64,000 bases of DNA, taken from the NCBI GenBank assembly GCA_030141605.1, contig JAQGDQ010000006.1, positions 999,501-1,063,500 of the forward strand, read 5' to 3'. The stretch is from Tubiluchus corallicola. Its lineage: Eukaryota > Priapulida > Priapulimorpha > Priapulimorphida > Tubiluchidae. Numbering within the stretch: position 1 is the first letter of the stretch; the number at the start of each line of letters is the position of its first letter. The notes below the pieces were generated by a model, which saw only the letters and a list, made by a program, of their open reading frames with translations, made no database searches and was not told the origin of the DNA. Shown here piece after piece: positions 6,071 to 55,300 of the stretch. Made by a program: the position numbers and the translations under genes.

Positions 6071-6316
6071 TTGTGTGACATGTAACGCAAGCGTTAACAG
6101 TTGCCAGGATCACACGAGCGAAAAAAATTGCTATTATTATTCATTCGTAGAGTGCCTATGACTAAGTTGGCTAACTTTAGGCTTTAGCTAGTATTAACTT
6201 ACATATTTGCAATAAGATGGAGCCACCAACTTAGCGTGGCAGTTTCGTAATAAATTTGGTTAGGTTTTTACTTAACAAATTTTGTGTTTTTACTACAAGT
6301 ACATATTGATATTGCG

Positions 6317-6555
6317 ATGTCATTTTATATATGGCCACATAGTAACGTAGTGAAACTACAGTGGCTTGAAAAAAATTGTCTAAAAAGATTGAAGTTTTTG
6401 GCGAAACTTCTAAGTTTAGGCGACTTTGAAGGGACAAATTCGGGCACGTGGATAATGAAGGCGCAAGATTTGTTATCACACGAAAGTACAGCGGAATTAT
6501 CTGATTGCTTGATAGAGGGATCCAAGAAAGACATTATTTCGCATTTTGTTCTTCG
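6317..6555 (+). CDS. PRIM2: PRIM2 exon 1 (first recognised)
   Basis: The ATG at 6317 begins MSFYIWP, aligned with the family's FYLQPP near residue 30, so an upstream exon may supply the usual N-terminal tail. The donor CG|GTATGT leaves phase 2. The exon ends in the conserved ISHFVLR. Confidence 0.8.
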
Positions 6556-9500
6556 GTATGTAGATGGTAGAGTAAACTATACAGGAGGTTATACAGTAGA
6601 ATTCCTTGAGGGCTTATATAGGGTGTCTGATACACATATATTAATGCCATAATACAAAAATTATGTTCAGATATACAGAGTCATAAATCTACAAATTAGA
6701 ATATTTAGATTTTTAAATCTGAATTGGGACAATATTGTTCTAAAACATTTTCTTTAATTACTCACTTATTTAGTTTATTGTGTGCATCAGAGAAAGATCT
6801 GACTGATCTTTTCATAGAAGGAGAGAAAAGATTATTTATTCTGCGACTGAGAAATTTTAACAAGGAGGAGCTTTTTACACTTTGTGATGCATCATTAAGA
6901 GAACTTTGTGGTTTGAGCAGCCTTAGAAATACTTCTCATATATCAGATACAATTCGGATGGTTTTTGACGCTGACAGTAAGAAACGTTCTTTACCAAATG
7001 GTAAGTAATTTTTGCAAAAATGTTACAAAAACATTTGTCGGAATTTGTAATAAGTCAGCTACATGAAAATTTTATTATCTTTCTGAAAATGAAATTCAAA
7101 TTCTCAGTGATTTTTAAAAATTTGATTTGAACAGGGCTTATCAAAAGTTTGATGCTGTCAGTGCTCAGTAGTATTCAATGTTCTATCTTTATTGATTGTG
7201 TATTGATTGCTTATTGATTTGTTGACTGTTACCAAGATACAGAAATAGCCTGCAATTGGGAGGATTACTTTTCAGTTTTATAGTATAAAAAATAATGTTT
7301 TGTATACATAATCATAAATGTTAATAATAATTCTAACCTTATACACTTGTCAAATTCATCAATGGGCCAGTGATTAAGGACTTAGCATATAAAATCGTGT
7401 TCAACAATAAAAGTGAGAATGGTATCATAACCATACAGTGCGAAAAAGTAATTTTTCACATTGCAGATAACCATACAGTGAGTAACAAGTAATTTTTTCA
7501 CATTGCAGATAACCATACAGTGAGTAACAAGTAATTTTTTCACATTGCAGTGACAGCAATAGCCGATAAGTTTTGCTTATGCTCAGAATTTCCAGAATTT
7601 TTATAATTATCATTTTCTGTAACTAACTCAAAAATTGTGTTTTGTCATTTTTTGTATTTTTAATCTTAAAATCCCACATTCTTCTACCAATCCAATCTTT
7701 GGCTACTCTCCAAAATGAAGCATCTTTCAGAATTAGAGGTTTCATTGAACTATTTTGCATTTCATTGATATCCATCCATGTCAGTAATAAACCTCCTTTG
7801 AGTTTCTTTGATGGCTGAACTCATGGAAAGCTTTAGTAAGTGGACTATCTTCTGGTAAACTCTAGGCATACGCTAAAAATTTCTTCTGCTAGTTTAAACC
7901 TTTTTGTCCATTTACCTGCTTCTTTCTTTTTAAAAAATGATCTCTTTGTCTGCTTTAATTAAAAACATCTTTGAGAAGCATTAATCTACAATCTGTTTCC
8001 TTTCAAATTCTGTATGGTTGAAAGACGCAAAATTCTGGAAAATCCTTTGTTTATCGCTTCTTGCTGGAGATATTTCTGAACTTTGAGACGGTACACGGTA
8101 CAAGATTTTTCTTCTGAACCTAAGAGACTGTCTAGATATTTGTATTTTTTCAGATACTTCTGTCCTTGTATTTAATATGAAATCTCTGTTTCATTTTCAT
8201 TTAGTTTTTGTTTTTTTTTACCTGAGCTGACACTATTCTACTTGGTTTTTCCTTTGTATTTCTCAAGAAAGAAATGATATCCGCTTACTGTATGCAGTAC
8301 ACACAGTCTTAGTATTCTGTTTTGGTTTATTTTAGGAGAAGAATGGAAATCTTTGCAGTTGGTTTATCAATGGAAAGACATAGTTACAGCATATATGAGG
8401 CAATCAGCACACACTTGCTTTACTTTGCCATTTCATCTGGTACCTGCACTTGTAGCAGAAAGGCAGGCAAAGTTGTACAGGGGTTTTCTGTACGTTTAAA
8501 TTTTTTCAAGTGCAAGATCACATGTTATTCCTCATAGACTGCATCGAGAATTTATATCACTAAACACAAATACAAAAATGAAGAAACGTGTCTGAATATT
8601 TCCGAGTGAACACTGTTGCATTATTTTTCTGATGGTTCTTATTCTTTGTGGCCAAAATGTTTTGAAATGTGCTGTTTCTATAGTGATGTGCCAAAGACCT
8701 GTTTTCATTTGCTTTTTTATTTTAGGTTTGTTCCCTGCCGTGTTTTAGATGTTGCTTTGTCAAGTATTTTCAAGCAGTTATTGTCTGCCGAAATGAGCAG
8801 GATAAAGTCTTATGCCATCTGCACACTTAAAGAAGACCAGAGGATGAAAGATCTTTCTGTCGACGTTTGGGTATGAATATTACTTTTTTAATTAAATAGA
8901 TCACCTTCCAATATTTGGGGTTGATGATATGATGTAATAGTGACTCCATAGTAATTCGCTGCCTAATGTTTATGATTTTCTTTCTTCTAAATTATATTCA
9001 TGAAGTGATAGACTGAAAATATTGAATAAAGAACTTGTAAAATGATTTCCTCGTCATTCAGTCTTTTCACTGCCAGTCATACCATAAGAGATGTTTTGAT
9101 GACATGCGATGCTTATTAGTTTCTTTGTCTGCAGTATGTTTTGCAGTCCTTCTTGCCAAACTAAGCTTTGCACTTGTAATTATATGATTCTAGGGCGCGA
9201 TTATCATCTGATCTTCATCACTCCTTGTTGTCTTTTAATCTTTTCCTTTTGATCCTTCTTTACCCTGCCTGCTTCTCAAGCTGCTTCTATGCAAAAACAT
9301 AATATCTGGGATGTGATCAAACTCTTCATACTTGGCCAATATGGCACAATAATTATAAGGAACTACATTTAAAAATATGTGTCCATTGGTTTGTTTGCTC
9401 AACAGCCCTTCACTCAGCTAGGCCTCTCTGATACAATAATTGTAATTGTAAGTAAATAATTGCAGAAAACAGTACTTAGTGAAACTGTAGTAGTTCAGTT

Positions 9501-12500
9501 AAAGTGATTTGAATGTCTTAGTGGCAGAAAGACACATGGCTGTACAGTAGGTGTCATTATTCATTTGTGGCTTCTGCATAGATTTCATATTGTATTATAT
9601 GTTTTTTAAGCAAGCAAAATTATATGTAGAATTTATTTAGAGTATCATGGCAACATGCATAATTACACTTACAAAGAAACCTTTTGTGGTGCATCAAACA
9701 ACTTGAAGCAAATCCTCAAACTATATAAAATAAGGTGTAGTAGGAGACTGAATCAGCCTTACTTAAATATCTACTAATATCGCAGCTGCACAAAATTTGA
9801 GAATTAATATACATGCATATCACTTTATTGGAAAAGTTTTTACAAGAGCCACATTATTTCAAAATTATAAATATGAACTGTGCATCTTTCATAGATTATT
9901 GTGTGACGTAATACTATATATGACTAAGTGCGAGAAGCATCTAGAGACCTCAAAGCAGCAAAATAATGATGTAGATCACAAAAATATCACATTATCTTAA
10001 GGCAAAGTCAAATCAAATTTTGCAACATTTCTAAATTGGGCTAATTGCATTTCTGTCAAGTAAAAAACAGGTCTAAATAAAACAGCTTGAAAATGTTTTT
10101 TTCTTTGCCTAGGGGTTAAGAAAAACAGGTTAGGTATTTTTAAATATGATGACTTTCAAACTTTTGTTCCTATCTGCCAAGGTACAATAATTAAAACATA
10201 TCAAGCTCAATGTGTAAATGTAACAAGGTTTTGCTTGCTGTAATTTTGTATTTTCTTTAATATTAGCAGTTAACTTCTATAATATGGTCTTGCTTGTGCT
10301 TCCATCTGTATTAACAGTGCCACGAAGAATTCTCACTTTTCAAATTAAGGATTAACAACTAAACAGAATCCTGACCGAGGGTGATTGCGACTTGGGAATT
10401 GTAAAAATTAGAAGGTTGAGATATAATTATAATTATATGATCCATTGTTTGTGTCTGTGAAAGTTTCCAGCCTTTGATGCATTTTTTCACTCAGGCCTGG
10501 ATACAAATATGTGTTTCTTCAGCCGAATGTAAGTAATGCCTAGTTTAGAACATTTAGTAAAAAGTCCTTGTAAACAAAAAAATGTAGTGTTCGCAGGTAT
10601 ATAAGAAGCAGAAAACATAAAATCTAAATGTTAATTAATTAAAAGAAATTCAAAACAAAATTACCTGCATGGACTGTTTCATGCTAGAGCTGTGTTTGGA
10701 AATCTGATATTCAGCACTTGTCTCATTTTTCTGTTTCTTTCTGGAAACAAGTGTGGTTTGCAATTTGCCACATGTATGTGTAGCATATTTTTTGCCCTCC
10801 TCTTAAGATCTGTGTTTTATTGAGATCTTTCTATATAACGACATCACCTGCTGAGAAGTGCCTTTCATTTTAGTAGCGTACAAATCTACGGGCTTATTGT
10901 ATTATAAAATGAATTATTTTTATAGGAATAGTTTTCCATTCATGCCTGCAGGCACAGCCTGCAGGTGGGTAGCTAATTAGTTTTAGGCACAATGTCGCTG
11001 TTTGACTCTGATATGTTTTGGATGTTGTTATACTAGTATGCGTTTTACTTTATGATAAGCAATGTTCTGTTTTCCTAGCACTTTCCCGGGATGCATTCAG
11101 GTTACGTTTGTCTATTTGATATTTTATTTTCTAGCTTAAAAATAATTTTATTTCATCTCAAAAACTAATTGTTTTCACTCAGTTTGTCACAACAGTCAGT
11201 GTTTCTTTTCAAGACTCAGGAACTTTTTGTTGTTTACTTTTTGACGTAAATTATTGATTTCTATGTTCATTTTTTTCTGTTTTATGTTCCTATTATATGA
11301 AAACTGGAAATTTATTTCAAGCTTTATGTGTCCTTTCTGAAATGATTTATATTAAAATTTTCAGTCATATTTTTATTCAGAGCTGCTAAATTTATGCAGA
11401 CGTGAGTTTGCTATTAACACCTCTTTGAAACAATCTTTACATTTCAGTATGATTAATTTTATCCGTTGTGTTGCAGGCATGGCTGAAATTGTTTGCAAAA
11501 GGCATCAATTTGGAAACGAGGCCAATTCAACACCTCATTGAGATTCATCACAATGAAATTGATTTTTTGCTACTTGCTTTTCCTCCATGCATGTCACACT
11601 TGCATCAACAACTAAGAACTAAACATCGTCTTGGGCATCACGCACGGGTAAGTACAAAAATTCTTTTTTGAATCGTATCAGAGCATTATATTTTTTATGC
11701 ACTTCAGCACACTGCAAGCCAGAATCTAGTATTCAAAGGTAGGGCTTACTCAATGAAATGTTTGTGGCATGACTAGACCAGAACTCTTTGTCAAAGATAT
11801 CCCTTGAAGTCATTTAAATCAGCAGAGGTGTCTTAACCATGTTACCGCCCTGAGCAAGTATCGAGCTCATATCGGCCACTCGCATAAAGTGCATACACTT
11901 ATCCGTTCAGCCACTCAGCATGACTGTGGCGTTGAATCAATGTGGTTCAGTGCTGCGCTAGGGCAATTGTGAAAATCTTGTAGGAATGAGAAATTTACAC
12001 TCAGTTGTGTTTTTTATGTTTAGTAATTCTTTCGTATGTGCTTAGTCCTGCTACAAGCCTTTGGAATTAATCAGTATGTCCCTTTAGTAGACAAAGAACT
12101 GTCTAAGTCCAATTAGGGAATTGTGCATTGCGATATTTGTTATCAATAGTATGTATCTAGAACTTAAAATAATGAGACACATTTCTTGATGAAACCGGTT
12201 TAGTTTGTAACTTAAATTTGTGATTCTGGCTCTCAGGAATCTGCTTCCATTTATTCAGCCTGCTTCATACTGTGGCTAAAAATTAACGTGTGAATATTAA
12301 TAGTGGTTAATTTGATTTTCTTTCAGATTCAGTATACCCTGTTTCTTAAAGAGATTGGCCTTAGTTGTGAGCAAGCCTTACATTTCTGGCAGTCTGAATA
12401 TTCCAGGCCTGAATTAACTGATCTTGCATGCAGTCATAGCTGGAAACCTGATAAAGTTCGTTACACTTACAACATTAAGCACTTGTATGGTTTGGAAGGT

Positions 12501-13523
12501 TCTAGAACAAACTACAGAGCTCACTGTTGTTCTGCAATACAGGTACATTTGCTGATGTTTATGAAGTGCTGTACAGAAACACGTCTCTTAGAACAAATGC
12601 TAACATCATACTGTTTGCATGCTCAGAGTTTTTAACATTTATTTGCCATCCGTAATTTGTTAAGAGATATTGTCTTTTGGAGATATGATTTTAGAGATCA
12701 TGAATATGTATAATTCTGAATATTTATGTACAGTGACGCTTTTTTACACTACTGCCACTGTATCATAAGTTTTTATTACACATAATCATAAATTTTTATT
12801 ACACATAATCATAAATTTTTATTACACATAATTAAGCAATTCCTTTAAGTTTAAGCTCGGTGGCCTTGCTTAAATTTTCTTATTTATTTTTTTTAGGATG
12901 AAATTCTCTCATGTGGGGATGAGGGGGGTTGCCCCTTCGTACATTTTGACATATCGTACTTGTGCAGTCTTTTTTGTGAGCTCAAAGAATTGAAACGACA
13001 AAGAATAATTGACTTGGTAGCAGCTGACTTGCCACTGTCAGCTTGTCAGCTACTCTTCCAGTATAAGCTTAAAAGACTGGTGATGTCAATTAAACAGAAA
13101 ATAAATGCACGTATTTCTGAAAACACGTTATGTGATAGTGACAGTGATATTGTCAAGTTTTTGAGATATGTTACTAAAATGGTGTCACAGACAGAAGTGT
13201 TGGGTGATCGGGTGACTTATAAATCACCTGCCAGGAATTTAATGAAGAGATCAGGTGATTCATCAGACGAGTCTCATGTTTGCAAAAAAGTATTCTGTGA
13301 ACGACAGAAACAAGGGCAGAAAACAGAAGACAGCACCGTAAAAGATATAGAAGATATATCGTTCTGGACCTGTCCAGATCATGACTGTTGTGTGATGCGA
13401 AAAGACCAATTATCAGCATCTATGAATGGTGCTGAAATGGTTCAAACGTTTTTCTTTAAAAAGCCATCACAGTATTATTTTCAGCTTATAACCGAACTTA
13501 AAAGCTTTCCATTCAACTGTTGA
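6317..13523 (+). CDS. PRIM2: DNA primase large subunit, gene span (7 joined exons)
   Basis: Regulatory large subunit of primase, partner of the small catalytic subunit and of DNA polymerase alpha in the nucleus; it helps start and measure RNA primers at replication. Joining 6317-6555, 6774-7000, 8336-8489, 8726-8870, 11477-11647, 12327-12542 and 12897-13523 gives 592 residues with all phases matching. The N-terminal half carries the family landmarks FYIWP, ISHFVLRLLCASE and YRGFLFVP. The C-terminal half is the Fe-S domain: CMSHLHQQLR, then IQYTLFLKEIGL, YNIKHLYGLEGSRTNY and GGCPFVHFD. The cluster cysteines fit residues 293, 379 or 380, 396 and 434, close to human 287, 367, 384 and 424. Human PRIM2 has 509 residues; the excess lies mostly in an insertion of about 120 residues after the last cluster cysteine, before a terminal KKPSQYYF stretch resembling the usual HPNQYF motif. 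The start is uncertain: an upstream coding exon is possible. Confidence 0.93.
6774..7000 (+). CDS. PRIM2: PRIM2 exon 2
   Basis: Acceptor TTATTTAG|T restores Arg and continues LLCASEKDLTDLF, matching the family's LAYC.SEELRRWF. Donor G|GTAAGT leaves phase 1. Confidence 0.88.
7430..7552. repeat. Tandem repeat, about 42 bp x 3
   Basis: Three near-identical units starting CCATACAGTG at 7431, 7471 and 7513, each ending with CACATTGCAG. It lies in PRIM2 intron 2. Confidence 0.9.
8336..8489 (+). CDS. PRIM2: PRIM2 exon 3
   Basis: Acceptor TTTTAG|GA, read in the frame beginning 8338, encodes EEWKSLQLVYQW up to ERQAKLYRGF, the counterpart of the RGRKVYLEDGFAYVP region. Donor CT|GTACGT. A longer open frame over the same bases is a shadow in another phase. 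Confidence 0.82.
8726..8870 (+). CDS. PRIM2: PRIM2 exon 4
   Basis: Acceptor TTTTAG|G completes Leu and continues FVPCRVLDVALSSIF. Donor TGG|GTATGA is in phase 0. Confidence 0.87.
8871..11476. other. PRIM2 intron 4
   Basis: AT-rich intron of 2.6 kb. No coding exon or RNA gene seen. The only sequence of note is a short GC palindrome near 10943-10965. Confidence 0.7.
11477..11647 (+). CDS. PRIM2: PRIM2 exon 5 (first Fe-S cysteine)
   Basis: Acceptor TTGCAG|GCA in phase 0. The exon carries FPPCMSHLHQQLRTKHRL with the first cluster Cys and the His/Arg residues of the template and primer binding loop. Donor CGG|GTAAGT. Confidence 0.93.
11825..11945 (-). mobile_element. Probable tRNA-derived SINE copy
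   Basis: Read on the minus strand this has a type 2 tRNA-like A-box region (GCTGAGTGGCTGAACGG) and, about 40 bases later, a B-box-like GAGCTCGATACTT. No clean cloverleaf or intact acceptor stem is present, so a decayed SINE head fits better than a tRNA gene. It lies in PRIM2 intron 5. Confidence 0.5.
12327..12542 (+). CDS. PRIM2: PRIM2 exon 6 (second Fe-S cysteine)
   Basis: Acceptor TTTCAG|ATT in phase 0; begins IQYTLFLKEIGL and includes YNIKHLYGLEGSRTNY and the CC pair, one of which is the second ligand. Donor CAG|GTACAT. Confidence 0.93.
12766..12833. repeat. Tandem repeat, 24 bp x 3
   Basis: Three units of TTTTTATTACACATAATC with small spacing differences, in PRIM2 intron 6. Confidence 0.88.
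12897..13523 (+). CDS. PRIM2: PRIM2 exon 7 (terminal)
   Basis: Acceptor TTTTAG|GAT in phase 0. It encodes the third and fourth cluster cysteines (GGCPFVHFD and SACQLLF), then about 120 polar residues without a close family counterpart, including a Cys/His-rich patch FWTCPDHDCC, and finally FFFKKPSQYYF. Stop TGA at 13521; AATAAA candidates at 13842 and 13895. Confidence 0.9.
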   Translation, partial: DEILSCGDEGGCPFVHFDISYLCSLFCELKELKRQRIIDLVAADLPLSACQLLFQYKLKRLVMSIKQKINARISENTLCDSDSDIVKFLRYVTKMVSQTEVLGDRVTYKSPARNLMKRSGDSSDESHVCKKVFCERQKQGQKTEDSTVKDIEDISFWTCPDHDCCVMRKDQLSASMNGAEMVQTFFFKKPSQYYFQLITELKSFPFNC

Positions 13524-14840: not shown

Positions 14841-15911
14841 TTAACTCAAAATTTTATGTGGGACAGATTTATATCCAAGTCGTTTCAATACATCACTACA
14901 TCTCTTTTCAACAATCTTTGCATGTCTCTGTTTCATAACGTTTTTCCACTGTATGGCGGTTGCTGTGGAATTTTTCCTAAAAGTATTCTGCAAGGTCTGT
15001 ACTCTTTTCATTTTCGATGTCTTTTCATTAGTGTTGTTTTCTATAAACTGCAAAACACGAGTATGCATTTTGAGCTTCAAAAATCTGAATATTGCAATTG
15101 CTTCCTCTTTAGTATTAATGGCAAGCTCTTCGTACTTTATTCTATAGTATCTATCAGGATGCTGTACTTTCAGCGCATCACCTGCTATGATGTCGTTTAG
15201 CATTGAATCACAGAGTATTGTAGCTTTTTCATGAAGGTCAGTCACATCATAGATGTCATACTGATACCATGAAAATAGCATTGCACGTGGGTCACGCACC
15301 AAATGTAGTATTGTCAGATCATTATCACCATCTTTTACTAGAGGTACTAGGGCTTCTATAGGCATTCGTATAGTTTTTATTAACATATTTGTGTAAATGT
15401 GACAGGTATCTGTAAATAACTGTTTTCTACCAGCTTGCGATGAATATTTTTGAGAAGCTTTTTGAAATTGCTGTGATTCTATGCACTTCTGTCTTCCATT
15501 TTTAGTTCTGGTGTCAATTTCCTTACATGCATATCGCATAAGATTTCTGGTGAGAGACTTGGCCTTGTAGGAATGCTCTTCATTCTCTGATGGCGTTATT
15601 AGTTTACAACTTATTATGTCTTTTATCATCTTAGTTTTCAGGCTAAAGATATCTTTTTGAGTCCGAGACGTGTTCATGTTTGCACAAAAATTAAAGCCAT
15701 TTGATAACTGATCGATATCTAGGTGATTAAAACAGCCTGACAGTGGTTCATAAACGTACATCATGTCAGGTGTGGAGCTGATCAATTCCCCGGTGAAAGA
15801 AGAACCTGATCTGTAACGTGTGCTTAAAATAATCGCTCTTTTTCTTGCATCCTTTTCACGTGTTTCATTGAAAAGTTTTGTGTCTTGAAAGATGCTACGA
15901 AAGCGAATCTC
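14841..15911 (-). CDS. Sulfotransferase exon 2 (catalytic domain)
   Basis: Single long exon; stop TAA at 14843-14841. The acceptor reads TTATTTAGAG on the minus strand. Using the second AG (exon start 15911) keeps phase 0 with the transmembrane exon, while the first AG (start 15913) would shift the frame. It contains both PAPS-binding motifs. Confidence 0.88.
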   Translation of the reverse strand, partial: EIRFRSIFQDTKLFNETREKDARKRAIILSTRYRSGSSFTGELISSTPDMMYVYEPLSGCFNHLDIDQLSNGFNFCANMNTSRTQKDIFSLKTKMIKDIISCKLITPSENEEHSYKAKSLTRNLMRYACKEIDTRTKNGRQKCIESQQFQKASQKYSSQAGRKQLFTDTCHIYTNMLIKTIRMPIEALVPLVKDGDNDLTILHLVRDPRAMLFSWYQYDIYDVTDLHEKATILCDSMLNDIIAGDALKVQHPDRYYRIKYEELAINTKEEAIAIFRFLKLKMHTRVLQFIENNTNEKTSKMKRVQTLQNTFRKNSTATAIQWKNVMKQRHAKIVEKRCSDVLKRLGYKSVPHKILS

Positions 15912-16443
15912 CTCTAAATAAAAAAGGGAAAAGAAAAATTTGTAGTTTCCAGATCTATGAAAAGAACATTAGGGCATATTCTTTCACTAAAGACATTTCG
16001 AAAACCTATTTTTAACGCGTTGTGAAAGTAAACCTGTACCTTTTTATTTTGGCTACTATATAAAAAGTTTCTTTCTGGCTTGTGCAAAGATTTGCGTCAC
16101 AGTAATGACATTTCCTTGAAATTTTGAGTATCAAGTTTAATGGTATTGCCATAAAAATCTGCCATCAACATTAAGCTAATAGACATTATAGACTTTACTC
16201 TCACTACTACATTCAGACTCTAGTAAACTAGGAAAAGTGCTTTTTCATTTCTGCGAAATAGAATTCTGACCGCCCTGTTTGATTCAAAACCTTAAATCTA
16301 GATATGTGCTCTAAAAATAGGATAAACGACAACCCGACTTTGACCTAATTATATACGTTAGACAACATCAAAAACTGACCCATTAAGTAGAACGTAAGAA
16401 TCCCGCACGTTGTCACTGTAGCTATCAGTGAGTGAGTGCTCAT
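14841..16443 (-). CDS. Carbohydrate (CHST-type) sulfotransferase, gene span
   Basis: Golgi type II membrane enzyme that transfers sulfate from PAPS to a sugar hydroxyl of a glycan. Joining 16443-16357 with 15911-14841 gives 385 residues, in the usual range for the CHST1/2/3/7 group. The first exon supplies a short cytoplasmic tail and a signal-anchor helix (SLIATVTTCGILTFYLMGQF). The second exon begins with a stem, then RSGSSFTGE, the 5'-phosphosulfate binding loop. HLVRDPRAMLFSW follows, the 3'-phosphate binding motif, and then a C-terminal domain with YYRIKYEELA. The acceptor substrate cannot be read from the sequence; galactose, GalNAc and GlcNAc 6-O-sulfotransferases share these motifs. 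An additional 5' exon may exist (see 17630-17674). The gene is tail-to-tail with PRIM2. Confidence 0.88.
16357..16443 (-). CDS. Sulfotransferase exon 1 (signal anchor)
   Basis: ATG at 16443; 29 codons with one hydrophobic helix; donor AAC|GTATAT in phase 0 matches the next exon. The open frame continues 5' of the ATG for six codons to an acceptor TTCTTGCAG, so coding may begin further upstream. Confidence 0.65.
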
Positions 16444-20600: not shown

Positions 20601-23588
20601 GCAGCAACTTCCGCCGGTAAGATAACAAGCTGGGGTGTATAATAGTCAAACAGCCCAGAACTAACTTTCTCTCTGGTCACTCATCCTCAGCGTTGCTCAA
20701 CTTACTGTCAACTGCGTGGCCAATATGTACATATATATAAGTGCTCATCAATAATTATTATTATGTGCTGGTTTCTTGCTTCTTCTGCATTAATTCTCTG
20801 CCAGAAAAAAGATTCAAAGACATTCAAAAATAGTAGGCCTAGGCCTTAGCTGTCTACACACAGCGAGCTGTAATTATCTAAAGAATTACGTGTTTGAATC
20901 GTCTAGGGTTCTTGTCTTAATTTGCTACTAATACACTAGCTTAGGTGCCACTATGAAATTACGCAACCGTTACAATCTATGACTCTTCTCTCGCCGCTAT
21001 TTAACCTCAAATTATATTCTGGGAATGAGTACTTAGTCAGAATAAGCTTTATTATTTCTGAAGCCTTACAGGTCTGCGGGTTGGTAAATAATTACTACGA
21101 TCAAGTGTTTAAATCTCGCACAGTATCTGTCACGTTCACATTTCTATAGTCAACACCTTGATTAGCTTGATTAAAGGCAGGTAACTTGCGCAACCTAGTT
21201 TGCTATGCGTGTGTTGTTTTGCTTTTTAATCTTTACTGAACAACTGAATAAGAAGAAAACATTTAGTACTTTATGTTTCCAAGTTTTTTTGTTTGTTTCT
21301 TGTGTGATAATTTTTGCCGTTGACGTATGTTCTTATTTTAATATTGTACTCTTTCTCCTAGGGTAGCCGATGTTTTTGCTCTGAACTATTTTCGCCCACA
21401 TTATTTTAAACCACTCTTTATTATGCTCAAATTGCGTTCCATCTTTTTGGCGTGAATTACATACGAACAAAACAAACTGTGTCTGATATTATATTAATTA
21501 CCATGATACTGTAAAAACTAATCAGCGAAGACTTGCGCCATTATCCTTTGACATTTATGCATGCACTTGCTTGTTAATTTATTTGCAAAAGAAAAAGATT
21601 TATTGCACAGGCGGCTCTCATAGTCTGCCTACAATATGTGTTATCATATCACAATAACTCGCACAGATTTAAGAGTTTTTAAAGGTTTTTCTACTTCTCG
21701 AATTGTCCAACAGTCTTATAGCTACCTGTTATTGAAGTACACAGTTGAATCGCCCGTACAGACGGTCAATGCCCTGTTCCCCGTGTCATCATACCCATTG
21801 CATTTTACGTCCACTATGAATAAAGACAAAACTTCTCCTTTGTTTTATGAGGATCATTAAATTTCTTTCAGTGTTTTTTGTGAAATAAGTTACACACGCT
21901 ATCAACTTTTATGCTTAAAACAATGGTTTAGCATAAGTGCCCAGAAAATAGAAGGTCTAGGGTTTGAGTCCCTGTCGAGTGCAAACTTTTTCAGACTCAA
22001 ATTTAACATGATTGCCATTGCGAAAACTGCTCAACTTATTAAAAAATATTCCCGACTTTCGGGCAATATAAAGTGCAACGAGAAGAGAAATGATTCGTTC
22101 AATTAAGCTTAATTTCACAATCTTAATTAACTAATTAGAGCTAATTAACTGGTCTTAACTCAACAATAGATTTTAGACTGTGTGCCAAAATTTCTAGCCA
22201 GCCAGGATCTAGACCCAGAACGTGCAATTGTGGTAGAGCATTCGACTTCTTCCTTGGCTCATAATTTTCTGGGTTTTCCTGTTTCTTCAATTAATTAAAG
22301 CACCTGTTAGGTTGATTGTTACTAATGTATAAACAGTTAGGCTATGTTAGCTATATGTTGTTAGATTAATTGTTGTTTATACGTAAACATGTACATTCAT
22401 ATGCATTAGTCCTGGCTTATCATGTTGAATTATTTATGATAATTAAGAGCTCTTCTCAGTTGCAGGCGCCGCTGCACTTCGCGGTTTAACTTGATTTGTA
22501 ATTGTGAATGGTAGCACTATATGAAGAAGTTTTTAGTATCTAGTAGTTGCTCATAAAGTGGCTACACGCGCCGGACAACTGTGAATGGTATATGCTATAT
22601 GCTTATAGAGTAGTAACTGAGACAAACAAGAACAACGCGAGAGAAGCCAATAGAAAAGGTCAAATAAATATGACAAAAACATTAATGAGAAGAATGGTAA
22701 AAACGAAATCGAACGGCAATAATAAAGAAAAACAATAGTAAACATAAAAACAGCAGGGCGATGCCAACAATTAAGAAAAGGCGGCAGCAGGAACAGTAAT
22801 AAAAACAACAAAGGTACTACTCTAGATAATAATATTAGTACGGGATTACGTAGTAATGTTATTATCTATGGATACTACGATGTCGATTCTCTAAATTGGA
22901 AAACACTAGGACCAGTCAATATTCAGAAAAAAAATCTTCATTATGAACTATATATGAACTTCAATCCATATACTAAGCGCAAGTAAACAAATAAATCACA
23001 CTATTATTTTTATTGAAAAATTGCAAATTAATGCACAAGTTTACATTTGACACATTTTTAGCTTTTCGTCTGTCCGTATTTGGTGGGCCATTGCTTAGTT
23101 TGACCGCACTCGCACTTAATGTCAGTTTTCAACACCTAAACCCTGTTCACTGACGAAAACCTTCACAATGTTAGCTATTGTTCTCACGTTAGCTGCACTT
23201 TGGCGCTTGTAGCTACTGTTCACACTCGAAGCATTGGCAACTTTTTCTCGTACGTTCACGTCAACATTTCTCCACTGGCGTTCTCACTAGTCTCACTAGT
23301 TAATGAATTCTGTCACTGAAGTACCGACGACAAAAGAACCTATATCACTATTACTGATGTCAAATTTTTAGGCACCGCACTGTTTTGTGAACTCTGTCTA
23401 AAACCCTGTGTGAAGAGAACTGTCGTTGTTTTGTTCAAAAATTGGTTGCTGTTACCGACACTTTTCAAAACGGATGGAAAAAGATCAGCTGCCACTCAGT
23501 TATCTGCTCTGGCGTTGGTTTACAGGTATCTTCTCACCATTTCCTCTTTTGTCGACTTTGCCTTTGCAAGTCTTGCAATTGGTGTAGG
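17675..23588. other. Intergenic, no gene recognised
   Basis: AT-rich DNA between the sulfotransferase 5' end and burs. The open frames are short without domain signal. A hairpin-rich segment lies at 20285-20425. Scattered TGGTAGAGC/GGGTTTGAGTCCC-like boxes near 21950 and 22230 may be SINE debris. A TTTATT (minus-strand AATAAA) at 23009 could serve burs. Confidence 0.55.
20285..20425. repeat. Cluster of short inverted repeats (hairpins)
   Basis: Nested stems: CTACC/GGTAG at 20292-20305, CTCAC/GTGAG around it, AACACC/GGTGTT shortly after, and CTGATACT/AGTATCAG enclosing the last part. Origin unknown. Confidence 0.5.
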
Positions 23589-23954
23589 TTACCTTAGACT
23601 TAGAATACTTTCTCTGCATAAGCAGTCTCGAGGTGCCCTTATTCTTATTACAGCGACATTGCGCTTACGCAGAGGACAGTACAACCTCACACGAGCTTGC
23701 ATTACTCCAACTTCTTGACAACACTTACAAGATCTTTCTAGATAAAATACGTCAACGTCTGACGATACCACTCTTACAGATGATAGGCACACCCCTCTAC
23801 AAGCAAACGACGGGACTCTTCTAGTCCGGCAGCCGGGATAACCGACCTTATGTATGATACGTCGCATTTGGCAGTATTTATGATGATTCAAGCTATTACT
23901 GAATAAGGATACGAGTGTCAAAATTCCTAATATAGTCACCGATCTAGATGCCAT
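23589..23954 (-). CDS. burs: Bursicon alpha subunit
   Basis: Secreted cystine-knot hormone subunit that pairs with partner of bursicon; in insects the heterodimer controls cuticle tanning and wing expansion through an LGR-type receptor and cAMP. The single open exon encodes 121 residues. An N-terminal hydrophobic stretch (VTILGILTLVSLFS) fits a signal peptide. Then come the family's signature blocks: GYPGC, VPSFACRGVC, ERSCKCCQE, RLYCP and APRDCLC, in the order seen in insect bursicon alpha (YPGC...PSFAC.GRC...ERSC.CCQE...FCP...CMC). Ten of the usual eleven cysteines are present: the last one, expected two residues after CLCR, is replaced by Ser (CRES). A donor-like AAG|GTAACC just before the stop leaves room for an unseen 3' exon. 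The ATG at 23954 is the first Met before the signal peptide. It is divergent with pburs. Confidence 0.88.
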   Translation of the reverse strand: MASRSVTILGILTLVSLFSNSLNHHKYCQMRRIIHKVGYPGCRTRRVPSFACRGVCLSSVRVVSSDVDVFYLERSCKCCQEVGVMQARVRLYCPLRKRNVAVIRIRAPRDCLCRESILSLR

Positions 23955-24200
23955 AGTGAACAGTAAGAAAACGAAGTTACGCGATCAACTGGCATTAGTG
24001 CTTATGATATCCTAGATATCACACATATTCATTGTGTGGGATGGTACTATCTCTACTTTATTGAAAAGTTTTGCTCTTGCGCATGTGTATTGCAGTAGTT
24101 TACGCGATGAGAAGCCCACACGCGTAAAGCTTGGTTTGGCAGGAAGCGGAATCGTAAGCACGTAGATTATCTAAAAACAGGAAGCGGGAGAGTTTCTCAG
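23955..24200. promoter_or_regulatory. Presumed shared promoter of burs and pburs
   Basis: The interval between the burs start and a candidate pburs 5' UTR exon. It holds TTACGCGAT at 23977 and 24100 and the inverse CGCGTAA at 24121, plus a near-palindrome GATATCCTAGATATC around 24006. The role is inferred from position only. Confidence 0.35.
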
Positions 24201-25576
24201 GTAAGCGTTTCTTATAGTGATTATATGGCAAGAACAATAATTATGAAGTTACGAATAATAGCAATAGCAACACGTTCATGTAATAATTTTAAGAGTTTCA
24301 TAGATATACTGAGTTAAACATGATTCTTGTAAGGCGAGTTTCTAGTCCGCCCGCGATCGTTGTTCAGTTAATCATTGACAATGTGGCTACGTTATATCAG
24401 TTAAGTTAAGTAATAAAGAATGTAGATTACCTAGCACCTCGAAAGTATTTTTTTAATTTGTTAATGATAGGCCGCAAATTTACGAGGTGGAAAACAGACT
24501 GCTGTCAGGCCCCGGCTTCTTAAAAGTTGACGCAAGCTGATTGGAGGCAGCGGAATTTCTGTTATGTACGTATCTGCACAAAAGCCCTTAAAACCACACC
24601 AGATTTGGCGTAATAAAGGTGGATCAGAGGGCTAAAAAGAGTGGGACAGCGTTCCATAGTTTACCATTTCACGGCAACTTTCTTGGCACTACTTTTCGGC
24701 TTTTCAATTATTTCTGCTATTTTTAAGATTTAATTTTTTTATTTGGCTGGTTTGTATAAATACACATAAAAATATATACATACATTTCGTAATAGCCATA
24801 ACAATATTATGATGGGTAAGCACAAATGGTAAGTACTAAGCACAAACAATCCCGGAATGAGGCTGAGCGCAAGCTTTCGTACCTTACTCTGGGGCTGCGC
24901 CAATTAATTTAATATAAGTATAATTAAACAAATTTTAATGTGTATATAATGTACACAGGTAACATGCAAGTTAAATACAGCTTTTATTTATAATCTTTTG
25001 TTTGTCTGTCATAGATATATTACAACAAACATTGCGTTACATTTTTTTCACTGTAAATTGTAGTCATGCAGTGTGAGCTTACGTTTTTTTAAATAAACGA
25101 TTTAATCAAATTCCAAGTTCGACATACAGTCCTTTTTGCACCTTGCTAGGCCAATGGATACTGTGTGTAATGTACTGGGTGTCAGAATATTATGACGTAT
25201 AGAAATTTATTTAATCAAACTATTGTTTATGAATACTTGTTTCGGATCTAGGTCACTTGTAGGTAACGTGTTCAGAAATCCCACGCTAGCATGCCTATTG
25301 GTTAATATTACTGCCGACAGTGTTTAGCGTGCGAGCCCGCGGGGACACTGCCAACAACAGCAGCGACAATGACAACAGTAGCAACAACAAGAATAACAAC
25401 AGGGAGCACTGAATTTAAACAATTCTCTTTCTTGTCGATAGAATTCAAATGTAATGCATAATAATTGCACGTCTTCTAAAATTATTAAACTAAGAGAACC
25501 TAGTGAACCCTTAAATTTTGCGTCTTTGCGCATATCATGCATGCTAATGAATACAGTACTGATTTACAAATTATAG
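24201..25576 (+). other. Probable 5' UTR intron of pburs
   Basis: A strong donor TCTCAG|GTAAGC at 24200/24201 and an acceptor TTATAG|GTG at 25576/25577 could bound an intron before the first coding exon. No coding exon seen inside. Confidence 0.35.
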
Positions 25577-25609
25577 GTGAACAATTACGACGGCTTTACA
25601 AAGGAAAAG

Positions 25610-25768
25610 ATGCATTCCTCGTCTCTGAACGACTTGAGTCGACAAAGTAGTGGATTTACATTATCGGTTTTTATTATGGCAATGATGACTTTCACTCAAG
25701 CTGCAGGCTTACACATTAATGAAGAAATTTGCGAGACACTGATTTCTAGTGTAAGGTTGACTAAAGAT
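25610..25768 (+). CDS. pburs: pburs exon 1 (signal peptide)
   Basis: ATG at 25610 is the first Met in the frame open from the acceptor at 25576. The exon carries the signal peptide and the first knot cysteine (ICETL); donor GAT|GTAAGT, phase 0. Confidence 0.88.
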
Positions 25769-28171
25769 GTAAGTTTTTAACGTTCTTTTACCCAGTAAAA
25801 GCTTTTTATCCAGTCGGCAGTCCATTAAAACAAAACCAACTTTGCTTTGAAGTAAAACAAGAAAGGTGCGGTTAATATCAGATTACAATCGTTATAATCA
25901 TGGTTGTATCAACGTCATAATATCGACATACAATCGTCAACGGGCCACCGAGTCGACTCTCAATTACTCTCCAAGACGAAGTACATATAAAGACCTCACA
26001 CGACGATTTTTCTGAGTGAAATCCATCTATGTATAGATAACCGATTTTCCTTTATCTTGTTTGCTGACTTACTGTTTCATGAGAAGCTTTTATAAAATAA
26101 AATGTAAGATCAACCAATCATGCTCAGTGGTTAAACAGCTATGACTGTTTAGGCTTAGTTGTCTGTACGAGCATCTTGTCAATCTTTAATTGATGGTTTG
26201 CTTCTGTATTTTGTAGCTGTATAGTTAAGCAATATTGAGGCCTCAGTACGTTTGTCATATATGTATTGATAGGAACGAGCTTGTAAAGCCTTGGTCTATA
26301 ATTTCCATTTATTCTTCCTTAGTATTGTTCTGGTGAAACTAGTCCATAGTAGTAATGATAATATGGTATTATACCTTTCATTCGTCTTTTAGCAATGTGG
26401 TTCTGTAATTTTTGGGTCAGTAGCATGTTCTGTACCTTTGACTAATTGCGGTATTTAACAACTGCTGGGGACTAACATTTTTGCTTTTATAGTATGACTC
26501 AGTAGTTTCTGGTAGCACCTAATAGCATAATTTTTCTCAGTTCCAGGCATCACTACTGCAACATGATTCTCAGTTTTGGCTGCCCTAGGTAAAATAATTC
26601 TAGTGCCTAGTGGGCTCCCGTAACTTTAGTTTTCCCATGATCTTTATACCTGTTTCAATAACAAGGTACTGAAATTTCTGGACCAGTCTGCATTAGTATG
26701 TTTCTATTACTCCTACGTGATCTGATTGATAATGAAATATGATCTCGCCAGCTTTTAGTAGTGCAGCTTCAAACATGGCGTTTGGGTCTGGGGCTCTTGT
26801 GCTTGTCTGCAGCAATGTGTTCTCAAGTAGTATTTGGGAAACATTACAGTGTAGTAGTATGCTTCTGCTTGACAGAACTCCGTAGTATTATTCAATGACT
26901 TAACATCACTCACTAGTATATTTGTAATAATTTCCATTCATTCCTCGGTGGTATTGTTCTAGTTCATATTAAGTAGCCAGCAATGATGATATGATATTGT
27001 AGCTTCTTTCAGCCTTTAGCAATGTTGTCCTGTAATTTTTTATTGAGCCTGTAGTTTTGTTATTCTAGCCAGTTTCCAGTAGAATGGTTCTGTGGCTTAC
27101 TTGTGGCATTTAACAACTTTTGTGAACTAAAGATTTTTTTAACATTTTTGTTTTAGTACTTTAGCTCTGCAGCTTCAGCTACTATTAGCAGTTTAATTAA
27201 ATCGCTTCCAGGCATCGTCATTAACAAGATTCTGGCTGCCAGCAGTAACATGATTCTGGCTAACCCTACGACTTTGGTTTTGTGGCTTTAGACCTGCCTC
27301 AGATATATCGTACAGTAATTTTTTGTCCAGTCTGGATTACAATGTTCACCTTTCTCCGGGTACTTCTGAATGATACCCAAAGTGTGATTTCGCTGGCTGT
27401 TAACAATGTATGTTTAGTTATTTAATTTCTGTGTGTGTAGTAGAGCCTTAGTAGTATTACTCTATGACTCGAATTCACTCATTAGACCTAGTATGTTTTC
27501 AATTTACAGCTGAGACTCATTCTATGCGGCACCGTGATTCTACTACGCGTAACATTAGTTTTTGTTAATTATGGTATTCAACAATTTTCAGGGAGTAAGA
27601 CTTTTTCTTTCTGTACACAGAACTGGCTAACACATAGAGAAATTTTATGACAGCGCAAATATCTAACTTTGTCTTTAGGTTTATAGTGAAACAAATGAGC
27701 ATTTGAAGACTTGTACTGGTATTGTTATCGTCACAAAATGTGAAGGCAAGTGCAAATCAAAAGTCTCGCCAAGTGTTGTGGCTGCAAATGGGTTTCAAAA
27801 GGTTAGATTAAAATTAATTTGAGTTTATATAATATACGAGTTCTTCTATTATCCTATATATATGCTATGTCGCTGTTATGTTAGCAAACACAGATGTCAG
27901 TCTTAATGTCAGCATCGTGCAGTATTTTATTAATGATCATTTGGTAATGCTGTGCCATCATAGAAGTCAACAAAATATCAAGTGCGATGATATACTTTTA
28001 CAGGATTGCAGATGCTGTCGTGAGACAGCTCTCCGTGAAAAACTCGTCACATTAGACACCTGCTACACACCTGACAGAAATGTAATAACATCAGAAAACG
28101 AACTTGGATCTACATACGATATAGAAGTGACTGAACCGCTTAGTTGTGGGTGCCTTTCATGCACAACTTGA
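25610..28171 (+). CDS. pburs: Partner of bursicon (bursicon beta), gene span (3 joined exons)
   Basis: Second subunit of the bursicon heterodimer, secreted and of the cystine-knot fold; beta homodimers are also described in insects. Joining 25610-25768, 27679-27801 and 28004-28171 gives 149 residues, near the usual 140 or so. A hydrophobic N-terminal helix (FTLSVFIMAMMTFTQAAG) fits a signal peptide. The mature part has ICETL, LKTCTGIVIVTKCEGKC, SPSVVAANGFQKDCRCCRE, LVTLDTCYTPD and EPLSCGCLSC. This is the order and spacing of insect pburs (CETL, TC...KCEG.C, QPSV...GF.KEC.CCRE, HCYD.DG, EP.EC.C..C). All eleven cysteines are present. It is transcribed away from burs. AATAAA at 28175, four bases after the stop. 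Confidence 0.93.
26113..26175 (+). mobile_element. Possible SINE remnant
   Basis: TCATGCTCAGTGGTTAAAC followed by a GACTG region resembles a tRNA A-box and the SINE-like copy at 11825-11945. The B-box is not clear. Confidence 0.25.
26290..27545. repeat. Degenerate tandem duplication, about 630 bp unit
   Basis: Two diverged copies in pburs intron 1. Anchors pair at offsets of 627-645 bases: TTTCCATT (26302/26931), AGCAATGT (26391/27018), GATCTCGCCAG with GATTTCGCTGG (26741/27386). GTAGTATTA pairs at 26882/27451, implying a deletion in copy 2. A partial third block follows to about 27600. Confidence 0.75.
27679..27801 (+). CDS. pburs: pburs exon 2
   Basis: Acceptor TCTTTAG|GTT, donor AAG|GTTAGA, 41 codons, phase 0 at both ends. 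Encodes TCTGIVIVTKCEGKC to NGFQK. Confidence 0.92.
28004..28171 (+). CDS. pburs: pburs exon 3
   Basis: Acceptor TTTTACAG|GAT, phase 0. Encodes DCRCCRE to the terminal CGCLSCTT and stop TGA. Confidence 0.92.
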   Translation, partial: DCRCCRETALREKLVTLDTCYTPDRNVITSENELGSTYDIEVTEPLSCGCLSCTT

Positions 28172-28180
28172 GTTAATAAA

Positions 28181-30699: not shown

Positions 30700-30825
30700 T
30701 TAGACTGGTCTTTTTCCTTTGAGGAAATAGGTAACCATATCTCCCTTGCCTTTGACAGTTATGGTGCCACGGCATTCAAATTCGTATCCCATTGGTTCCA
30801 ATATTTTATAAGTATCGTGAGTCAC
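30700..30825 (-). CDS. ADCY5: ADCY exon 20 (terminal)
   Basis: [19 protein letters not shown] with the phosphate-binding Lys1111, ending KRPV and stop TAA. The TAA is overlapped by an AATAAA. Confidence 0.95.
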   Translation of the reverse strand: MTHDTYKILEPMGYEFECRGTITVKGKGDMVTYFLKGKRPV

Positions 30826-52396: not shown

Positions 52397-55300
52397 CAAT
52401 AAATATAATTCAGTAACATAATTTTATGTACTTGGAAAGCTGACACAAAGAAAGCTGATCAGCAAAGTAAACAAGCTAATGCATGGCATTATAACTGGAT
52501 GATCAACGTAATACAATTCACAATAAGCAACAAGGTCAATTAGTCATTTTCAGAGAAGTAAAGTAAAATTCAATTAGTAAGATGTTTTATACTGTGATCT
52601 TTTTTACCCATTAAATGTGAATGAAAAAATAAGAAATTGACTATATTTCATTTAACTGAAAAGCCTGTAAGGTATGTCAGCTCCTTAAGCCCAACGAGCC
52701 ACATTTTTGAGAATATAATATCCGGTCGCTATGCTCTGGCCACTCTCTAAGGACATTCCGATACTATCATTTAAATGTAATATGTACGAATTCAATGTCT
52801 ATACTACCTACAGGTAAACAATACGCTTAATTTCAAAATTTTACTTGGTATAGCTTGGACAGTTGTGTTTTTAAGCCCAATATCAAAGTCATAGTCATAG
52901 TCATAGTCATTTATTTCACCATACACATTTACAGGTTACATATACAATATCAGTGAAAGGGCCTACAATGGATATAATACAAATAAAAAATACTGCACAG
53001 AAAAGCCTCAAGCACTATTTACTTATACACGAATGTAAATGTGTTGTGGGCAATCAAAAAGCAGGGCTTGTTAGATTGTTCCACACAGTGATAGAGAAAA
53101 AAAAGTAATGGAGATAATCTGAAAATTTAAAGTGAATCGTGATAAAAAAAACGTTAGTGCTTAAAATGGAATGATGTAATGAATGAAACTCATATATGGA
53201 ATGATATAAAAGATAGAAAGACTATTATTTTTTAATAGTATGTAAAATTAAAATAACTTGATTAAGTTAACACCACTGTTTTGCAACTACTGTGAGGATG
53301 GATACAGATAGAAATTTTAATTGCTCACTGATACTTACTTAAAATTTGATTTTTTAGCATTATTTTAAATCTAGTAATAGATCTGCTATTTTTTGCAGAT
53401 TGACAAATCTCATTCCAGACTTTTGGTCCTTGATATATTATAAAATGTTTAGCTATGTTGGTTCTACAGAAAGGCACAATGTATTGATTAAATCTTGTAT
53501 TATGTCTCTTAGATGTCAATTAGACAGGAATTGCAAAAAACTTAGGAAATAGTCTATAATTGCATTTATACATGAATACTGCAATATTCAATTTGATTAA
53601 ATCATCTAATTGCATAATTCTACATTCACGGTAAAGAAGTAAAGGTACTTCACTACGTTTCATTAGGCCATACATTAACCTTAAAAATTTTCGTTGCAAC
53701 GTTTTTAAGCATATTAGTTTAGATGGATATGTGGGGCCCCAAATAATGCTGCAGTAATTGAGATAAGGTAAAACCAGACTATTATACAAGATTAGTAAGT
53801 GTTCTTTCGAAAGACTATGTTTAATGTGAGTAATGATGCCTATATTTTTAGCAATTTTAAGTCTGATGTAAGAGATATGTGATTGCCAGTCTAAGTGTTC
53901 ATGTATGACAATACCTAAGAATTTAATCTGTTTTACTTGTTGAATATAACTATTTTCAATTTGTAATGTCAAATTTGGCATTCTCTTGTTTCTTGATCTA
54001 AAAACTACAAATTTAGTTTTGGAAGCATTTAGTGATAATTTATTACTCCTAAACCAGTTTGATATTTGCTGCAATTCATTGTTTATTTCAGCTTCATTAA
54101 CAGTATTGTAATATTTAAATATTAAACTGGTGTCATCAGCAAACTGCAGGATTTTTCCATTATTAATACAATGTTTTATATCATTAATGTACACAAGAAA
54201 CAAGAGTGGGCCAAGTATCGACCCTTGTGGAACACCACAAGATATTAATTTTGAGTTAGATATATAGTTATTATACTTTACTGCTTGTAACCTGCCAGAT
54301 AGGTAACTTACAAACCAATTATTCGCAACACCTCTTATTCCATAGTGGTATAATTTGTTAATTAAAATTTTATGATCAACAGTGTCAAAAGCTTTTGATA
54401 GATCACAGAAAATACTCACAGATAACTTATTATCTTCAATATCTCTGATTATGTTGGTCAGCATATCAATTAAAGCCATTCCTGTAGTACTGCCTTGACG
54501 AAATCCATACTGTGTGTCATTTAATATGCTTTGTTTATGTAAATAATCTGTAAGTTGCAAAGACACACATTTCTCAATAATTTTCGAAAAACATGGCAGT
54601 AATGAAATGGGCCTATAATTATTTATACAGTGTGGATCATCAGCTTTATGAATAGGAACTATTATGGACTGCTTTAGCTTATTAGGGACAATTCCAGAGG
54701 TAAGTGATAAATTAATAATATGGGTTAAAGGTATGGCAATATATTCAATAATATCAAGCATTATTCTGGGAGAGAGCTGATCAATACCGGTACTTTTATT
54801 TGGGTGGAATGACTTGCAGATTCTAATGATTTCATCTTTAGTTACAGGTTGAAAGAAGAAGGAATGTGGGTAATTTCCTTTAAGATAAGAATTTGGGTCA
54901 GTATTTGTAGGTTCAATGTTGTTTGATAATAAAGGGCCAATGTTTACAAAGTAGTCATTAAAAGCATTAGCAATTATATTTTTGTCATTAGTTAAATGGT
55001 CATTTACTTTTATGGAAGCAGGCAAGGATTCACGAGATTTATGCATCAATTCCTTCATTACATTCCAGGTTTTTTTTATATTATTTTGATAAGTTAGTAA
55101 TTTCTGTTGATAATAGTTTTGCTTGGAAATTTTTATCAAATTAGTAAGTTGATTTCTGTACTGTGTATATTGTTCCTTGTTGATTTTGTTTTTAAGCACA
55201 GATCGATAAAGTTTGTTTTTATGTTGAATGCTTTTTAACATAGCTTTAGTTACCCAAGGTTTTTTTATTTTAGGTAGTAATTGGTCAGCTGAAGTTTTAA

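Follow-up and report, generated by a model that had tools for sequence, protein, structure and literature searches.

The alpha and beta subunits of bursicon function as a heterodimer, and homodimers with an activity of their own have also been reported (PMC8522476). In the fly, the heterodimer acts via DLGR2 to raise cyclic AMP (cAMP) (PMC2990333, a meeting abstract). Bursicon is already known beyond the arthropods (PMC6660194), its role there was called unknown in 2016 (PMC4772807), and chordates are said to have lost the genes (PMC8522476). Eleven cysteines are described in both subunits of the honeybee (PMC5132263) and of starfish, sea cucumber and krill (PMC4772807, PMC6586643, PMC3749230). 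Honeybee alpha is encoded by four exons and honeybee beta by three, with a DAN domain given for alpha and none of that paper's listed domains for beta (PMC5132263); introns are also present in beetle alpha genes (PMC6585902). GPA and GPB genes stand in tandem in most invertebrates (PMC8522476), as they do in the oyster (PMC4200219), and glycoprotein-type hormones raise the question why subunits that must come together in the same cell are sometimes the products of neighbouring genes. Here we describe a 64,000-nucleotide stretch of the genome of the priapulid Tubiluchus corallicola (contig JAQGDQ010000006.1, positions 999,501 to 1,063,500; hereafter the window), in which a bursicon-alpha-like gene and a bursicon-beta-like gene stand head to head.

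It is very probable that this linked, divergently transcribed pair encodes the two secreted cystine-knot subunits of bursicon, a statement that concerns identity and arrangement and is kept apart from the question of shared control. The two start codons are 1,655 bp apart, and the outer ends of the pair, 23589 for alpha on the minus strand and 28171 for beta on the plus strand, are the final bases of the respective stop codons (Table 1). A reading of the letters made earlier (the sequence-only reading) had proposed this pair; its coordinates proved exact, and the motifs it named were found in both translations.

The alpha coding sequence has no introns. Its start codon (ATG at 23954) lies in a good context, with A at −3 and G at +4, and stop codons are present in all five other frames of 23589–23954. 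The protein begins with a stretch that appears hydrophobic by eye (MASRSVTILGILTLVSLFSNSLN) and carries the blocks YPGC, PSFACRGVC, ERSCKCCQE, LYCP and APRDCLCR, ending in CLCRES and not in CxCRxC. The sequence-only reading had identified alpha correctly and had overlooked both its intronless coding region and its missing eleventh cysteine. Beta is spliced into a frame of 149 codons by removal of two GT-AG introns of 1910 and 202 bp, both in phase 0, and follows the family pattern, with eleven cysteines in register and the CETL, KCEGxC and CxCCRE blocks; an AATAAA stands just past its stop codon, at 28175. The first beta intron also holds degenerate direct repeats (26298–27605), several of them spaced 629–667 bp apart (families D1, D5 and D6), which are perhaps an old internal tandem duplication.

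Table 1. Positions of the features discussed, in window coordinates unless a contig of the same genome (C number) is named
Feature	Position	Strand	Remarks
Candidate poly(A) signal of alpha, AATAAA	23009..23014	-	about 575 bp beyond the stop
Bursicon-alpha-like coding sequence	23589..23954	-	single uninterrupted frame, 121 codons, complete
AGT codon (Ser 116) at the eleventh family cysteine position	23607..23609	-	codon count from the ATG at 23954; alignment
Intergenic stretch, candidate shared control region	23955..25609	.	1,655 bp, from one ATG to the other
Strong splice donor CAG|GTAAGC	24198..24206	+	intron from 24201; candidate leader exon end at 24200
Candidate leader-intron acceptor TTATAG|GTGAAC	25555..25577	+	exon from 25577
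Beta coding exon 1	25610..25768	+	hydrophobic N-terminal stretch, CETL block; donor GAT|GTAAGT
Beta coding exon 2	27679..27801	+	KCEGKC block; donor AAG|GTTAGA
Beta coding exon 3	28004..28171	+	DCRCCRE block, CGCLSC, stop
GPA2	C1297, last exon from 107588, stop about 107680	+	also matched by the DAN model
GPB5	C1297, stop at 110996, first-exon block to 112222	-	
Gremlin	C35		DAN-model match
Second gremlin-like gene	C474		DAN-model match
Sclerostin-type gene	C2265		DAN-model match
Repeat	C1248:754596		DAN-model match, taken as false

To place the two proteins, we compared them with four bursicon pairs from crustaceans and the fly, the three crustacean alphas being those printed in papers, and judged significance against 300 shuffles per comparison in which every cysteine was kept in place. 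The window alpha was 43–44% identical to the four bursicon alphas over 90–93 aligned positions, with scores of 196–204 (14.5–16.6 standard deviations, SD), and the window beta was 42–48% identical to the four betas, with scores of 238–275 (14.5–16.9 SD). Cross scores, of alpha against betas and of beta against alphas, lay 3.3–5.7 SD above the cysteine-fixed shuffles, and the two window proteins scored 64 against each other (3.7–3.9 SD). Other cystine-knot proteins were represented by the gremlin, second gremlin-like, sclerostin-type, GPA2 and GPB5 proteins of the same genome and by human norrin and NBL1. Outside the bursicons alpha scored highest with NBL1 (71, 4.7 SD), followed by gremlin (65), the window beta, norrin (57) and GPA2 (54), and the top score of beta was 76 (norrin, 5.1 SD). 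The Pfam DAN family (PF03045) was found in alpha with an expectation value (E) of 2.2e-7 and 31.3 bits, the cut-off being 22, while a Pfam search of beta found no family at E up to 1, so that the pair agrees with the honeybee pattern (PMC5132263). By the pairwise scores, alpha and beta each stand closest to their own bursicon subunit.

Set beside the described families, alpha resembles bursicon alpha (burs, the CG13419 family) in its YPGC, PSFACxGxC, ERSCxCCQE, CP and CxCR blocks, in a DAN domain that passes the Pfam threshold, and in being a short protein with a hydrophobic start. It differs from that family in having ten cysteines instead of eleven (CxCRES), from four-exon honeybee alpha in its intronless coding sequence, and from crustacean alphas in the absence of a long C-terminal tail. 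Beta shares with bursicon beta (pburs, the CG15284 family) its eleven cysteines in register and its CETL, KCEGxC and CRCCRE blocks, and with honeybee beta its three coding exons and the absence of a Pfam domain; only its sequence divergence, given by the identities above, sets it apart. Norrin (NDP), the best non-bursicon match of beta yet far below the scores obtained with bursicon betas, has in common with bursicon a CxCC motif, a C-terminal CxCxxC pattern and a disulphide-linked dimer, and differs in being a homodimer that acts on Frizzled4. Neither subunit had a match at E up to 1 in a large protein set, where there were 9 and 22 candidates, and viral contigs gave no match to either. Among solved structures, no chain named bursicon matched alpha or beta at E up to 1; the best solved chain for beta was norrin (E 0.11), and the solved chain named Bursicon (8enb) was matched with NBL1 as the query.

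We then examined two trees, both built without the second gremlin-like gene, GPA2, GPB5 and a DAN/NBL1-like gene on contig C1248 that is described below. The first had 15 rows (four bursicon pairs, both window proteins, and human norrin, NBL1, CGA, FSHB and gremlin-2) and divided at 79/92 into an alpha and a beta side, with the inner forks mostly open. In the second, also of 15 rows, the genome's own gremlin and sclerostin-type gene replaced CGA and FSHB, and the window alpha forked with the bursicon alphas at 84/87 and the window beta with the betas at 93/92; when norrin was removed, the alpha fork stood at 87/88 and the beta fork at 93/91. The gremlin of this genome, which shares the DAN domain with alpha, forked with mammalian gremlin-2 and the sclerostin-type gene at 94/95, apart from alpha. 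The norrin and sclerostin-type rows were very long-branched, norrin in both trees. Moderate support comes from the trees, short of proof, for the view that each window protein probably belongs with its own bursicon subunit. Grouping of alpha with NDP or gremlin, which the sequence-only reading had named as evidence against a bursicon identity, did not occur in the second tree and was left undecided by the first; its assignment of both genes to bursicon held, with the genome's own gremlin located on another contig and the tree that includes this gremlin placing alpha with the alphas.

Several observations weigh against this identification. The alpha side of the first tree also held norrin, NBL1 and gremlin-2, and its beta side CGA and FSHB; no branch of the trees was starred, and the branch of the window alpha was long. 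A fold prediction made for alpha without an alignment was useless, with a mean predicted local distance difference test (pLDDT) value of 43, and alpha fails the eleven-cysteine feature of its family. Both genes are described here from the DNA sequence of one genome.

Searches covering all 2344 contigs of the genome (343.5 Mb) in six frames, with a loose first look after which the best candidates were scored, showed that this is the sole bursicon locus found in it. The window alpha matched one place genome-wide at E up to 1, and at E up to 0.001 the window beta had three matches, each an exon of its own, so that no second copy of either was found. With lobster alpha as the query, three matches were obtained at E up to 10, of which the window locus came first (3.2e-16, 47% identity), followed by the DAN-like gene on C1248 (E 0.034) and the gremlin on C35 (E 0.315). 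The DAN model gave six matches at E up to 1, including the window alpha, and the one at C1248:754596 was discarded as a repeat. The labels of these genes come from motif reading, except for gremlin (tree) and GPA2 and GPB5 (tblastn). The second-best lobster alpha match, at C1248:473130–473767 on the minus strand, is a further multi-exon cystine-knot gene, which looks DAN/NBL1-like by eye (CLGSCLSYS ... CFSCCEPTSQ) and ends in a bursicon-like CMCRPC.

These searches bear on the possibility that the window alpha is a retrocopy of a spliced alpha mRNA that landed beside beta and is drifting, with the true alpha elsewhere. Its intronless coding sequence would fit such an origin when set against the four exons of honeybee alpha (PMC5132263) and the introns of beetle alphas (PMC6585902), and so would its lost cysteine and long branch. 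We nevertheless consider a retrocopy very improbable, given that exon-by-exon searches with the window alpha, lobster alpha and the DAN model found no other alpha, that the frame is unbroken and keeps ten cysteines in register, and that a chance landing beside its own partner is very unlikely. Searches of this kind could miss an alpha split into short exons, and lobster alpha showed no sign of one. By our own arithmetic, the chance that two unrelated single-copy genes have their starts within 1,655 bp of each other in 343.5 Mb is about 1e-5. We infer, with less certainty than we attach to the identity of the genes, that the adjacency of alpha and beta reflects descent of an old pair and not a chance meeting.

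The missing cysteine was considered next. Ten of the eleven family cysteines are present in alpha and in register, and the last one, in CxCRxC, is replaced by a serine. Because of these ten cysteines instead of eleven, we filed the window alpha as a variant bursicon alpha orthologue rather than a typical member. Gremlin-2 and the genome's own gremlin likewise lack the terminal cysteine of CxCxxC in the alignment. Two ways of restoring the residue were considered and rejected: the CRE codons are not followed directly by a GT and the next codon starts with A, so that splicing could not yield CREC at this place, and a downstream frame with CxxC (23500–23664) has no cysteine at the expected place. 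The AGT codon is one base away from the cysteine codon TGT, and we are dealing with a single genome known by its sequence, so the last cysteine might have been lost only through a sequence error, with TGT read as AGT, or the minus-strand frame might not be expressed at all. We give this only a slim chance, as the frame is intact and its 43–44% identity to the alphas of distant animals points to purifying selection until recently.

If the variant is genuine, norrin suggests what it might mean. The interchain bridges of norrin are Cys93–Cys95, Cys95–Cys93 and Cys131–Cys131 (PMC4497409), and Cys131 is, by its sequence, the final cysteine of the protein. By this analogy, alpha would no longer supply its part of the C-terminal bridge, and the loss may cost bursicon one of three interchain bridges. 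The two CxC-to-CxC bridges would then hold the dimer together, and beta would be left with a final cysteine that is either free or bonded in another way. The variant alpha is in this respect a test of which interchain bridges bursicon needs. Going by what is known of the family, each subunit would be secreted, alpha would pair with beta, and the dimer would activate a type-B leucine-rich-repeat G-protein-coupled receptor (a bursicon receptor of the LGR2/rickets type), raising cAMP. In the literature on gene arrangement and on cysteines that we searched, whose scope left out most subscription journals, we found no description of bursicon alpha/beta linkage or of a ten-cysteine bursicon alpha. 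A fused honeybee bursicon gene was reportedly once proposed, and the sequence-only reading had cited that arrangement. As stated there it is unsupported, the honeybee study giving alpha and beta as separate coding sequences (PMC5132263).

To ask what the linkage itself might signify, we turned to GPA2 and GPB5 (thyrostimulin-type), which also form a cystine-knot alpha/beta heterodimer from neighbouring genes and are present in this genome. The two are adjacent on C1297:103000–112300, GPB5 having been located with a human query (E 4e-8). Unlike the bursicon genes they are convergent, tail to tail, with stop codons 3.3 kb apart and at least one coding intron in each gene, which means that in this genome the genes of two partners can remain neighbours with no promoter in common. 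The parallel with GPA2/GPB5 drawn in the sequence-only reading is thereby weakened: these genes are linked, as it had said, and their convergence means that linkage by itself is no proof of a shared promoter.

This linked yet convergent pair fits the view that alpha and beta are together by descent only, as what remains of cystine-knot hormone genes duplicated in tandem long ago, each with a promoter of its own, for which we see close to an even chance. Two promoters would fit within the 1,655 bp, and Roch and Sherwood favour tandem duplication of GPH, gremlin and SOSD genes, with bursicon itself outside that synteny (PMC4079206). Less easily accommodated are a strong plus-strand splice donor beside the alpha start and the mutual distance of alpha and beta (score 64), by which a tandem origin would have to be very old.

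Alternatively, one control region, either a bidirectional promoter or a shared enhancer, might serve both genes and keep the subunits in step, which we regard as a serious possibility falling somewhat short of even. The divergent gene order suits it, as does the fact that the products work as a heterodimer (PMC8522476), although homodimers are active on their own, so that strict balance need not be selected (PMC8522476). In its favour too is the donor at 24201, which is directed at beta from a distance of 246 bp to the start of alpha and is the only donor of its score on the plus strand in the 64 kb. On this view beta would begin with a non-coding exon ending at 24200 and spliced to about 25577, which would bring the predicted start sites of the two genes next to each other; less surely, the region beside the alpha start would drive both genes. 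No plus-strand ATG was found in 24107–24225 or in the stretch from the candidate acceptor (25577) up to the beta start codon (25610), and three ATGs (25537, 25541 and 25547) lie in the 100 bp before that acceptor.

Against shared control stand the following points. Three equally strong donors are found on the minus strand of the window, and when 1000 first-order Markov sequences of equal length were simulated, 35 contained one as strong, so that chance is possible. The acceptor at 25577 is weak, with a tract only half pyrimidine, and acceptors with better tracts lie further upstream. Divergent pairs have been defined by 1 kb between start sites (PMC2670823, PMC2648788), a limit that the 1,655 bp from ATG to ATG exceeds unless beta has the predicted upstream leader exon. 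As GPA2 and GPB5 are tail to tail, linkage need not mean co-transcription. The CpG observed/expected ratio is 1.05 between the start codons compared with 0.61 window-wide, but values of 0.68–1.08 span 16–26 kb and are therefore not specific to the intergenic stretch, so we do not read them as a promoter mark. Values are also high at 1–7 kb and mostly 0.2–0.7 in the primase and cyclase gene bodies described below, and this mosaic CpG depletion across the window is the pattern expected from gene-body methylation. Simple core-promoter motifs were scattered in the intergenic stretch, and codon usage learned from two exons of the window could not tell the frames apart; neither was used. Shared control of both genes is thus plausible and unproven. 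Old linkage and shared control are both compatible with the evidence, and we give descent a slight edge because the convergent GPA2 and GPB5 genes stay linked without a common promoter.

A more inclusive reading would have both heterodimeric glycoprotein-type hormones as still-neighbouring alpha/beta pairs left by block duplication of one ancestral pair, with the beta transcript starting beside the alpha promoter and with a bursicon that, alpha having lost its C-terminal interchain cysteine, is joined by two interchain disulphides where three are usual. Taken jointly we think this unlikely. Alpha against the genome's own GPA2 reached 3.8 SD and beta against its own GPB5 0.4 SD, giving no hint of a block duplication. 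Because both bursicon and GPA2/GPB5 are linked here, the one pair divergent and the other convergent, this genome makes it easier to tell linkage through descent from linkage through a shared promoter, and a compact bursicon locus with a mappable control region offers a practical entry to the role of bursicon outside the arthropods.

Scans of the window for tRNA genes and for Rfam families at the gathering threshold found nothing, and a search of the assembly for COX1 was likewise negative. On the plus strand at 6254–13520 lie exons of a DNA primase large subunit gene, with PF04104 at 12294–12632; the exons at 6254 and 12897, which match no Pfam family, were attributed to this gene by eye. Between this gene and the bursicon pair, a 375-codon frame on the minus strand (14844–15968) resembles carbohydrate sulfotransferases (PF00685). 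Downstream of beta, and in the opposite direction, an adenylyl cyclase gene occupies the minus strand at 30700–60400 (AC_N, Adcy_cons_dom and cyclase motifs); it appears ADCY2-like by eye, and its outer limits were likewise set by eye. Within its span, at 53523–56682 on the minus strand, lies an element of the long interspersed nuclear element (LINE) type, with PHD finger, endonuclease and reverse transcriptase frames.

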